40,557 bases of DNA from Actinomycetota bacterium (GTDB lineage Bacteria > Actinomycetota > Acidimicrobiia > Acidimicrobiales > Ilumatobacteraceae): positions 1 through 40,557 of the forward strand of contig WLGW01000009.1 of the NCBI GenBank assembly GCA_009703055.1, given 5' to 3'. Both the position numbers and the translations under genes were made by a program. Shown one piece after another: positions 29,595 to 32,594 of the stretch; position 1 is the stretch's first letter; each line of letters opens with the position of its first letter. The notes beneath the pieces were generated by a model. That model did no database searches. It saw nothing but the letters and a program-made list of their open reading frames with translations, and was not told the origin of the DNA.

Positions 29595-30746
29595 ATGAAA
29601 TCACGTGCTGCTGTTTTGTACGGAATGGATCAGCCATGGGTCGTCGAAGAGATTGAAGTCGACGAACCAAAGGCGAATGAAGTTCTCGTCAACTGGAAAG
29701 TCTCCGGTATGTGCCACTCAGACGAGCACTTCGTCACGGGTGACATGGTTCCTCCGAAGGAACTCCTTGCCATGATGGGCGTGGATGATTTCTTCCCATT
29801 CATCGGCGGTCACGAAGGTGCTGGCGTTGTAGTGAAGTGTGGCCCTGGCGTCACGACATTGCAGCCCGGCGACCATGTGTCAGCCAGCTTCGTCCCATCC
29901 TGTGGGCGTTGCCGTTATTGCTCCACAGGGCGTCAAAACCTCTGCAATCTGGGCGCAGGAACCCTCACGGGCGGCATGATCACTGATGGCACCCACCGTC
30001 ACCATGTCAAAGATGGTCGCCCCGTGAAGTTGATGGCCAAGTTGGGCACATTCTCTGAATACGCAACAGTGGCAGAGGCATCACTCATCAAGGTGGAGAA
30101 AGATCTTCCCCTCGATGCAGTCGCATTGGTGTCATGCGGTGTTGCAACGGGTTGGGGCTCAGCCACCAACCGCGCCGACACGCAACCTGGCGACACTGTT
30201 GTCGTCGTTGGCATCGGTGGCATTGGCATTAACGCCGTTCAAGGTGCTCGCATGGCTGGCGCCAAGCGCATCATCGCAATTGACCCTGTGGAGTTCAAGC
30301 GCGAGAAGGCAATGGAGTTCGGTGCAACGCATACGTTCTCATCGATGGCCGAAGCGATTCCTCATATCAATGAATTGACATGGGGTGAGATGGCCGACCG
30401 CGTCATCATGACCCCCGGCGTGTTGCACGGCAACATGATGGGCGAGGGTATGGCAATGGTTGGCAAGGGTGGTACATGTGTTGTCACTGCAATCTCGCCC
30501 ATGCATGAGACAAGTGCAGACATCAACCTCTTCCAGTTGGCAATGTGGAACAAAGAAGTCAAGGGAACCATCTTTGGCAGCTTGAACCCACGTGCAGACA
30601 TTCCAAAACTTCTCGACATGTATCGCGTTGGTGACCTCAAACTTGATGAACTGATTACAAAGCGGTACACGCTTGATCAAATCAACGAGGGCTACCAGGC
30701 AATGCGTGACGGCGAAAACATTCGCGGCGTCATTGTCAATGACTAG
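29595..30746 (+). CDS. NDMA-dependent-type zinc alcohol dehydrogenase, copy 2 (mycofactocin-associated)
   Basis: Paralog of copy 1 with the same zinc motifs (CGRCRYCSTGRQNLC) and an insertion (MVPPKELLAMMGVDDFF) after GD; SD CAGGGGGAATC. Confidence 0.92.
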   Translation: MKSRAAVLYGMDQPWVVEEIEVDEPKANEVLVNWKVSGMCHSDEHFVTGDMVPPKELLAMMGVDDFFPFIGGHEGAGVVVKCGPGVTTLQPGDHVSASFVPSCGRCRYCSTGRQNLCNLGAGTLTGGMITDGTHRHHVKDGRPVKLMAKLGTFSEYATVAEASLIKVEKDLPLDAVALVSCGVATGWGSATNRADTQPGDTVVVVGIGGIGINAVQGARMAGAKRIIAIDPVEFKREKAMEFGATHTFSSMAEAIPHINELTWGEMADRVIMTPGVLHGNMMGEGMAMVGKGGTCVVTAISPMHETSADINLFQLAMWNKEVKGTIFGSLNPRADIPKLLDMYRVGDLKLDELITKRYTLDQINEGYQAMRDGENIRGVIVND

Positions 30747-31668
30747 CGCTGCCTCTCTACGGAACACGCTCTCATCACAAGTGGTGGGGCGAACTCGTGA
30801 ACTTGAATTAGTTCTTGCGGCGTTAGCTGCTGATCGTCACGTGTTGTTAGAAGGTCCTCCGGGCACTGGTAAATCAACGTTGTTGCGTGCAGTTGCTCAA
30901 GGACTTGGCATCGGATTCGAGTTTGTCGAAGGCAATGCCGAGTTAACACCTGCACGTTTGGTGGGTCACTTCGACCCCGCACGAGTTCTGAATGAGGGCT
31001 ACGACCCATCGGTGTTTGTAGATGGACCCTTGGTCTCTGCGATGCGCGATGGTTCTTTGTTGTATGTCGAAGAGATCAATCGCATTCCCGAAGAAACACT
31101 CAACGTTCTCATCACTGTGATGAGTGAAGCTGAATTGAATGTTCCACGTTTGGGTCGCATTGCTGCTTCACCTGGCTTTCGGTTAGTTGCTGCAATGAAC
31201 CCATTCGATGCAGTGGGTACAGCACGCATCTCTGGTGCCGTGTACGACCGTGTGTGTCGTGTTGCGATGTCGTATCAATCTGCTGAAGAAGAACAAGCAA
31301 TTGTTCGCCGAAATACCGAAGGGTCTTTAGTGACCGATGCATGGCTTACAAAGGCCGTAGAAGTCGTACGACGCACTCGTCAGCACCCTGACCTGCGTGT
31401 GGGCTCATCTGTTCGTGGCGCCGTTGACTTCGCAAAAGTGGCGGTTTCATTGGCTGAATTGCGCGAATCCACTGTTGATCAACCAAGTGTCGGTGTTGAC
31501 GCCGCACTGGTTGCATTGTCAGGGCGCGTGCGTGTGCGCGAAGGTGGCGTGCGTACATCTGAAGAAATCGTGACGGAAATTTGGCAAGACGTTTTTGGCC
31601 GTGTTGAGGGAGACCCTGGCGAGGGAAAAGCTGGAGCCCCGATGAACCGGGGCACGACCTCCCTCTAA
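30739..31668 (+). CDS. MoxR/AAA_5-type AAA+ ATPase (0-frame product, 309 aa)
   Basis: Walker A LLEGPPGTGKSTLL, Walker B SLLYVEEINRI, FEFVEGNAELTPARLVGHFDP; ATG 30739 overlaps the end of dehydrogenase copy 2 by 8 bp. Confidence 0.9.
   Translation: MTSAASLRNTLSSQVVGRTRELELVLAALAADRHVLLEGPPGTGKSTLLRAVAQGLGIGFEFVEGNAELTPARLVGHFDPARVLNEGYDPSVFVDGPLVSAMRDGSLLYVEEINRIPEETLNVLITVMSEAELNVPRLGRIAASPGFRLVAAMNPFDAVGTARISGAVYDRVCRVAMSYQSAEEEQAIVRRNTEGSLVTDAWLTKAVEVVRRTRQHPDLRVGSSVRGAVDFAKVAVSLAELRESTVDQPSVGVDAALVALSGRVRVREGGVRTSEEIVTEIWQDVFGRVEGDPGEGKAGAPMNRGTTSL
31607..31653 (+). promoter_or_regulatory. Candidate programmed -1 ribosomal frameshift cassette
   Basis: AGGGAG (31607-31612), 10-nt spacer, in-frame slippery heptamer G_GGA_AAA (31623-31629), 6-nt spacer, hairpin GCCCCG-ATGAAC-CGGGGC (31636-31653). 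All lie inside the 31608-31668 window where both frames are open. Confidence 0.72.
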
Positions 31669-32594
31669 CAAAGGAAGGCGAAGCCGCCGACCAGGCAGTT
31701 GCAGATGCGGGCAAGCGCACCACGTCACGTCGCGATCTGTCGCGCAACAACAACTTTGAACAGATTTCTCCGGAAGTAGGAGAACTCGATGAGTATGCCG
31801 TTGATGAAGCTATGCAAAACAGCCCCGACGAAATTTTGGGATTACTCGCAGATCTCACGGGTGCCACTGACCCGAAGTTGCGTGAGTTAGCAAAGCGTCT
31901 CGCCGGCAGATTGATGTTGGATCTAGGTGCGCGCGGACGTGCTCGCCCACGCGGCATCGGCAAGATGGTGGAACAGGCATACAGTCCAGAGGCTGGTGAC
32001 ATAGACATCGATGCGAGTCTTGAAGCAATCAGTGAATCGCGTCGTGGGCATGCCATTGATCCTGATCGTTTGCGTGTGCGCGGATGGCGTAAGCCGGGCA
32101 CTGCCTTTTGTCTACTGCTCGATCGCAGTGGCTCTATGGGTGGTCAGCCATTGGCGACGAATGCCGTGGCAACTGCATCGATTGCAAGTCGTAATCCTGA
32201 GGACTACAGCGTGATTGCATTTGGGAAAGATGTCGTCGTGACAAAGAGTCAGGATGTGCCGAAGTCGAGTGAGCGTGTGATTAACGATGTCCTCACACTG
32301 CGTGGGCATGGCACAACCGACCTCGCAGGAGCATTGTTGGCTGCACGTCAACAGTTGTCGCGATCACGTGCAGGTCGTCGCATCACGATTCTTTTGTCTG
32401 ATTGCCGAGCAACCGTAGAAGGCGATGCTGAGATGGCGGCCCATGGCATGGAAGAACTGATTGTGATTGCTCCTCGCGATGATCATGATGAAGCGCGTGC
32501 GTTTGCCAACAGAGTGGGGGCGCGTTTGGCTCTTGTGGGTGGACCCAGCGAGATTCCTGAAGTTATTGCGTTTGCGTTGGAAGCGAGCGCGTAA
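31629..32594 (+). CDS. VWA (von Willebrand factor A) domain module with MIDAS, probably expressed as a -1 frameshift fusion to the AAA+ ATPase
   Basis: MIDAS DRSGSM, GTTDLAGALLAAR, ILLSDCRATVEGD. ORF track starts at ATG 31812, but the same frame is open back to 31608 with protein-like coding sequence (KEGEAADQAVADAGKRTTSRRDLSRNNNFEQISPEVGELDEYAVDEA) and no ATG/GTG/TTG. Confidence 0.75.
   Translation, partial: SWSPDEPGHDLPLTKEGEAADQAVADAGKRTTSRRDLSRNNNFEQISPEVGELDEYAVDEAMQNSPDEILGLLADLTGATDPKLRELAKRLAGRLMLDLGARGRARPRGIGKMVEQAYSPEAGDIDIDASLEAISESRRGHAIDPDRLRVRGWRKPGTAFCLLLDRSGSMGGQPLATNAVATASIASRNPEDYSVIAFGKDVVVTKSQDVPKSSERVINDVLTLRGHGTTDLAGALLAARQQLSRSRAGRRITILLSDCRATVEGDAEMAAHGMEELIVIAPRDDHDEARAFANRVGARLALVGGPSEIPEVIAFALEASA

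Follow-up and report, generated by a model that had tools for sequence, protein, structure and literature searches.

Among the described systems closest to the locus analysed here are the fs-chlD genes, the frameshifted magnesium chelatase genes of Antonov and colleagues: a single gene, read with or without a −1 frameshift, gives a long AAA+-VWA product or a short AAA+ product (PMC3711429, PMC9227772). In-frame fused relatives and a structure downstream of the slip site are likewise common to both. The two differ in the slippery heptamer, which is A_AAA_AAR in fs-chlD (PMC5009743) and G_GGA_AAA in our family, and in identity, as our family falls below the ChlD/CobS cut-offs, comes without CobN/ChlH in 15 of 15 genomes and is embedded in a mycofactocin/NDMA-alcohol-dehydrogenase (NDMA-ADH) context. 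The layout of the signal is that of Escherichia coli dnaX (gamma/tau), where a Shine–Dalgarno (SD)-like element precedes the heptamer by about 10 nt and a hairpin follows it after about 6 nt, and where the short and long forms share an AAA+ N-terminus. dnaX is, however, an unrelated clamp-loader gene with the heptamer A_AAA_AAG, and the direction of the shift separates our own loci, most of them being predicted to shift to the long form and nine to the short one. At the protein level, the best folds of both parts of our gene lead to NorQD and CbbQO, in which an enzyme-activating AAA+ ring works with a VWA partner; published data fit a single NorD on each NorQ hexamer (PMC9976466). In the literature that we checked, however, NorQ and NorD, and CbbQ and CbbO, are separate proteins for which frameshifting is not mentioned, and they serve nitric oxide reductase and Rubisco as clients. 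Finally, midasin (MDN1/Rea1) carries AAA+ and MIDAS/VWA parts on one chain but is a eukaryotic ribosome-assembly factor of some 4,700–4,900 residues.

Organization of the Locus

Our window, that is, the whole 40,557-nucleotide stretch that was analysed, contains an AAA+ ORF of MoxR/NorQ-CbbQ type on the forward strand (30739..31668), running from ATG 30739 to a TAA stop at 31666–31668; its ATG overlaps the end of the upstream alcohol dehydrogenase gene, whose stop lies at 30744–30746. The 309-aa product of this frame consists of the full AAA+ module and a 12-aa tail past the slip site. The VWA frame is at −1 relative to it and opens after a TGA at 31605–31607. The short overlap of the two frames holds, all on the forward strand, an SD-like stimulator AGGGAG (31607..31612), exactly 10 nt, the slippery heptamer G_GGA_AAA (31623..31629; GGA AAA in the 0 frame, GGG AAA in the −1 frame), a 6-nt spacer and a presumed stimulatory hairpin (31636..31653) whose 6-bp GC stem encloses a 6-nt loop (GCCCCG/ATGAAC/CGGGGC). 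The 0-frame stop (31666..31668, forward strand) then ends the short, ATPase-only product. A shift at the heptamer would add 321 aa of linker and metal-binding VWA domain with its MIDAS motif DRSGS (31629..32594, forward strand), giving a predicted AAA+-VWA protein of 297 + 321 = 618 aa in which GDPGEGK is joined to SWSPDEPGH; the predicted junction peptide is GEGKSWSPDEPGH. Between 31608 and 31811, the VWA frame has no ATG, GTG or TTG, and its first ATG is at 31812. A first-pass annotation had placed the ORFs, AGGGAG, the 10-nt gap, the heptamer, the spacer, the stem and the start-less stretch, and all these coordinates agree exactly with the raw sequence.

The hairpin of the window is, by itself, unexceptional: a 46-nt stretch folds at −14.4 kcal/mol, with a z-score of −1.23, and 27 of 200 shuffled sequences are at least as stable. 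The window alone is thus insufficient as proof, and the argument has to rest on the position and pairing of the stem across relatives. A search against the known frameshift elements in Rfam found none that match.

Conservation of the Frameshift Signal

We gathered AAA+ relatives at the genus, family, order and phylum level, together with named genomes, and after the removal of duplicates were left with 168 non-redundant loci. The nearest named relatives belong to Ilumatobacteraceae and other Acidimicrobiia, and the further ones to Geodermatophilaceae, Pseudonocardiaceae and Nocardiopsidaceae, among others. As these loci are related, independence is overstated and all P values given here are only indicative. 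In 119 loci, the VWA frame is at −1 and a canonical heptamer lies in frame; nine have a fused frame but keep the heptamer, with a −1 stop 3–21 nt later, and 11 are in-frame fusions without a recognisable slippery site, some of them paralogs. A further 18 are other −1 cases, eight lack the VWA part (six truncated by contig ends or gaps and two stand-alone ATPase genes) and three fall outside these classes.

Such a distribution bears directly on the most trivial explanation, that a sequencing or assembly indel, or decay to a pseudogene, has split an ordinary fused gene. The window does come from a draft genome of 119 contigs, and genuine in-frame fusions are present among the relatives, which the first-pass annotation had listed as a finding that would point to an indel. 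The fusions are distant ones, however, and the same −1 phase recurs at the same heptamer in 119 non-redundant loci from many genomes, the single-contig genomes G061, G170, G176 and G304 included, while nine of the fused genes retain the heptamer; coding constraint is, moreover, seen on both sides of the junction. We regard an indel as ruled out by the 119 loci, and the explanation as a whole as having practically no chance of being correct.

The signal itself is conserved beyond what the protein demands. The canonical heptamer is found in 128 loci, as G_GGA_AAA in 125 and as C_CCA_AAA in three. In the same genes, 14% of glycines are encoded by GGA and 30% of lysines by AAA, and from this codon usage the pair GGA-AAA would be expected at about 4.9%. 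All 23 same-genus orthologs keep G_GGA_AAA, and none of them shows a VWA start with a non-conserved junction, which would have spoken against the first-pass reading. The synonymous-site conservation that this reading anticipated is also present: among these orthologs, no synonymous sites in the ATPase ORF are better conserved than those of the slip codons, with a synonymous identity of 0.96 over the last four ATPase codons against a mean of 0.41. Beyond the stem, the codons CAC GAC CTC (window 31654–31668) likewise show unusually high synonymous conservation; pairing between them and the bases immediately preceding the stem may lengthen it.

The dnaX-like logic of SD-like element, slippery site and hairpin, proposed for the window, holds family-wide. 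A stem scoring 15 or more and starting 4–9 nt past the heptamer was present in 92% of loci, against 15% of control windows, which were taken from these same genes (Mann–Whitney U test, P = 7e-54), with the mode of the offset at 6 nt and the controls flat. Conservation of the hairpin, as it had been envisaged, applies to position and pairing but not to the sequence of the 6-bp stem: there are 63 distinct stem sequences across loci, including changes on both sides of a pair, for example from G-C to C-G. Folding energies of the whole stretch, compared across loci (mean z-score −1.4), were less informative than the stem offset. Upstream, complementarity to the anti-SD peaks 6–10 nt before the heptamer, where 57% of loci, compared with 14% of controls from the same genes, reach −4 kcal/mol or lower. 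In 114 of the 119 loci, a stop closes the 0 frame no more than 60 nt from the heptamer, and in 38 it comes after a single codon.

These distances also weigh on the possibility that the second product arises from transcriptional slippage at the A/G run and not from slippage of the ribosome. Both mechanisms are known from dnaX, depending on the species (PMC3711429, PMC5009743), and about ten A follow one another at the AAA+/VWA junction of L213, a distant relative, where transcriptional slippage is possible. Such slippage has, however, been described at runs of about nine A or T (PMC5009743), a length that GGGAAAA does not reach, a stem at 6 nt and an SD-like element at 6–10 nt are ribosomal distances that would not be expected, and in three loci G_GGA_AAA is replaced by C_CCA_AAA. 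We consider transcriptional slippage highly unlikely for the window.

The −1 frame is, judged by its substitutions, under coding constraint already before its first ATG. From the hairpin to the first VWA ATG, substitutions among the 23 same-genus orthologs fall on the three codon positions of the −1 frame in the proportion 1546:724:6419, and the start-less stretch is, on this pattern, evolving as −1-frame coding sequence. If the locus were two translationally coupled genes, with the VWA protein started independently by reinitiation after TAA 31666 or at ATG 31812, the latter start would remove about 61 conserved residues that evolve as coding, and no earlier ATG, GTG or TTG is available to the VWA frame in the window. 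Coupling draws some support from 50 of the 119 loci, which have some ATG, GTG or TTG between the heptamer and the start of the VWA profile, from the distant relative L104, whose junction GGGGGAATGA is an ATGA overlap where reinitiation could occur instead of or besides slippage, and from the paralog L034, in which both parts are in the same frame with a stop between them. In the other 69 loci, on the other hand, there is no start codon at all between the slip site and the VWA part, and the conserved heptamer, stem spacing and −1 phase would be left unexplained. Independent initiation is therefore very unlikely, and the case for this and the other rivals (transcriptional slippage, an indel, chelatase identity) is weak.

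The sequence-based requirements for a −1 frameshift gene of the X_XXY_YYZ type, an in-frame slippery heptamer within the overlap of two ORFs and conservation of the heptamer and its stimulators beyond protein constraint, are thus fulfilled. Together, the comparative evidence from the heptamer, the stem, the SD-like element and the −1-frame coding excludes a sequencing indel and favours programmed −1 frameshifting, the reading originally suggested for the window and by far the best one; it rests on comparison, without reporter, proteomic or ribosome-profiling data. That shifting takes place at a useful efficiency is only an inference.

Several loci outside the main class deserve mention. On visual inspection, several of the other −1 cases have shift-prone runs of another kind, for example G_GGG_GAA or runs of A. 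L079, L084 and L086 belong to a paralogous AAA+/VWA family whose VWA part is at −1 and whose junction carries T_TTT_TTC in frame. In L217, the VWA part is at +1 after a C-rich stretch, through either a +1 shift or a homopolymer error. L035 (G012), a near-identical relative, has an upstream frame change that interrupts the AAA+ gene, either a broken gene or an assembly fault, and its junction signal is intact. Among the in-frame fusions, no slippery site is recognisable in L065, L066, L204, L208–L211 and L216, and their lineages may have the long form only; given the 11 fusions of this kind, two products may not be required in every lineage.

Protein Identity and Genomic Context

The AAA+ part matches AAA_5 and MoxR-like profiles, with 91 bits for PF07728, and the VWA part matches PF13519 and PF05762, with the MIDAS residues DRSGSM, T230 and D258 conserved. 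AlphaFold (AF2) models of both are confident (pLDDT 89.9 for AAA+ and 86.5 for VWA), and the slip site lies in a disordered linker past the AAA+ module. The best fold of the AAA+ part is NorQ (E = 2.4e-19), with CbbQ close behind, and that of the VWA part is NorD (E = 3.8e-9), with the midasin MIDAS next. By sequence, the AAA+ part is nearest to midasin, NorQ, CbbQ and CobS, and its strongest match in the PDB is midasin, at 164 bits. With a NorQ/CbbQ-fold AAA+ core and a MIDAS-bearing VWA domain of NorD-like fold, the gene has the fold features of a MoxR-type AAA+/VWA system.

A real frameshift could still serve an fs-chlD-type chelatase, supplying the small and medium subunits of a Mg- or Co-chelatase, and the first-pass annotation had drawn the comparison with chelatase-type genes. 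fs-chlD genes do make AAA+ and AAA+-VWA products by −1 frameshifting (PMC9227772), and there is a weak match, of 43 bits, between the AAA+ part and BchD-ChlD. The family scores are, however, far from their cut-offs (in bits, 43 against 499.6 for ChlD, 36 against 779 for Cob-chelat-sub and 26 against 558.6 for CobS), and the CobN/ChlH large subunit is absent from all 15 carrier genomes, the control genomes having scored as expected. Because the large subunit is missing from these 15 genomes, the gene is not a chelatase; unmet cut-offs and absent CobN/ChlH exclude this identity, which we find hardly credible, and the genomic linkage places the gene in the mycofactocin/NDMA-ADH system instead.

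That linkage is close. The gene sits in a locus for mycofactocin, a cofactor of alcohol oxidation, overlapping the end of an NDMA-dependent alcohol dehydrogenase (TIGR03989; 29595..30746, forward strand; 559 bits, cut-off 440) that is its probable client or partner. A second such dehydrogenase (TIGR03989; 28447..29562, forward strand; 563 bits) lies upstream of the first, and on the reverse strand are the mycofactocin chaperone MftB (TIGR03967; 27930..28259; 94 bits, cut-off 33) and the radical SAM maturase MftC (TIGR03962; 26825..27940; 624 bits, cut-off 265). Of 127 loci, 97 have a dehydrogenase like that of the window as their immediate upstream neighbour, and all 33 upstream dehydrogenases sampled are TIGR03989; about a quarter of the signal-bearing loci have no NDMA-ADH detected in this position. 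Across 298 genomes of the order, MftC is found in 76 of 81 carriers of the gene and 40 of 217 others (P = 1e-34), and TIGR03989 in 79 of 81 carriers and 38 of 217 others (P = 5e-40). Adjacency to NDMA-ADH and mft genes and co-occurrence with MftC together make the gene mycofactocin-associated. As 40 MftC-positive genomes of the order lack it, the gene is not essential to mycofactocin use.

Proposed Mechanism and Novelty

Very probably, the locus is one gene with two readings, separated by a −1 frameshift; that it encodes a NorQD-like activator of alcohol dehydrogenases is the less certain half of this explanation, of which the efficiency, the ratio and the client are inferred parts. Ribosomes in the AAA+ frame would reach G_GGA_AAA with the SD-like stimulator about 10 nt upstream and the GC hairpin 6 nt downstream; the fraction slipping to −1 would make the 618-aa AAA+-VWA fusion, and those that do not slip would stop at TAA 31666 and leave the 309-aa ATPase. 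We infer that ATPase and fusion assemble together into a MoxR-type ring with few VWA domains, as in NorQ6-NorD1, and that this ring acts on the product of the gene just upstream, the NDMA- and mycofactocin-dependent alcohol dehydrogenase, by remodelling or activating it. A frameshift-set stoichiometry of ATPase and VWA remains an inference for lack of data on efficiency. The proposed function, that of a NorQD-like activator acting on mycofactocin-dependent alcohol dehydrogenases and having a frameshift-set subunit ratio, is inferred from fold and context, and we lean towards it without great assurance.

With similar reserve, we somewhat favour the view that this is an undescribed, Actinomycetota-wide frameshifting family, consisting of MoxR AAA+/VWA proteins that are associated with mycofactocin, activate NDMA-dependent alcohol dehydrogenases and have their ATPase to VWA ratio set by a −1 shift whose polarity has flipped at least twice. 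In the literature searched, we found no paper linking mycofactocin with VWA proteins or frameshifting, and the only match for mycofactocin together with MoxR was unrelated work on Mycobacterium chelonae prophages. Overlap with the actinobacterial set of a 2020 MBE study of fs-chlD genes cannot, however, be excluded. The locus matters as a conserved and widespread recoding signal in a gene that standard gene callers would report as two, and as a candidate activating chaperone for mycofactocin-dependent alcohol metabolism that goes unmentioned in the mycofactocin literature that we checked. With the ratio of ring and partner set by a frameshift, the question of MoxR/VWA stoichiometry becomes testable.

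Polarity of the Predicted Shift

In the window and most of its relatives, the shift is predicted to give the long form. In the nine loci with a fused frame and G_GGA_AAA (L073, L075, L077, L078, L081, L083, L085, L185 and L187), the −1 stop follows 3 nt after the heptamer in seven and 15 and 21 nt after it in two, and here, as with dnaX of E. coli, it is the short form that the shift would yield; L077 has an additional frame change downstream. The common junctions AAAAGCCTGA and AAAAGCTGA are one base apart. On a FastTree tree, the fused class with the slip site needs three changes, two of which are forced by well-supported branches, and the sister loci L033 and L187, joined with a support of 100, differ in polarity, the predicted shift giving the long form in the former and the short form in the latter. 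Since both frameshift polarities are known in dnaX (PMC3711429, PMC5009743), there is a precedent for such a switch. That polarity has flipped at least twice in the family with the product pair unchanged, a part of the new-family reading, is not excluded, and the switch would then be a natural experiment in which selection preserves the product pair and not the frame. In two genomes of one phylum-level family, a separate AAA+ gene stands beside an AAA+-VWA fusion (L206, L207, L215 and L218); this arrangement is a duplication and a third route to the same product pair.
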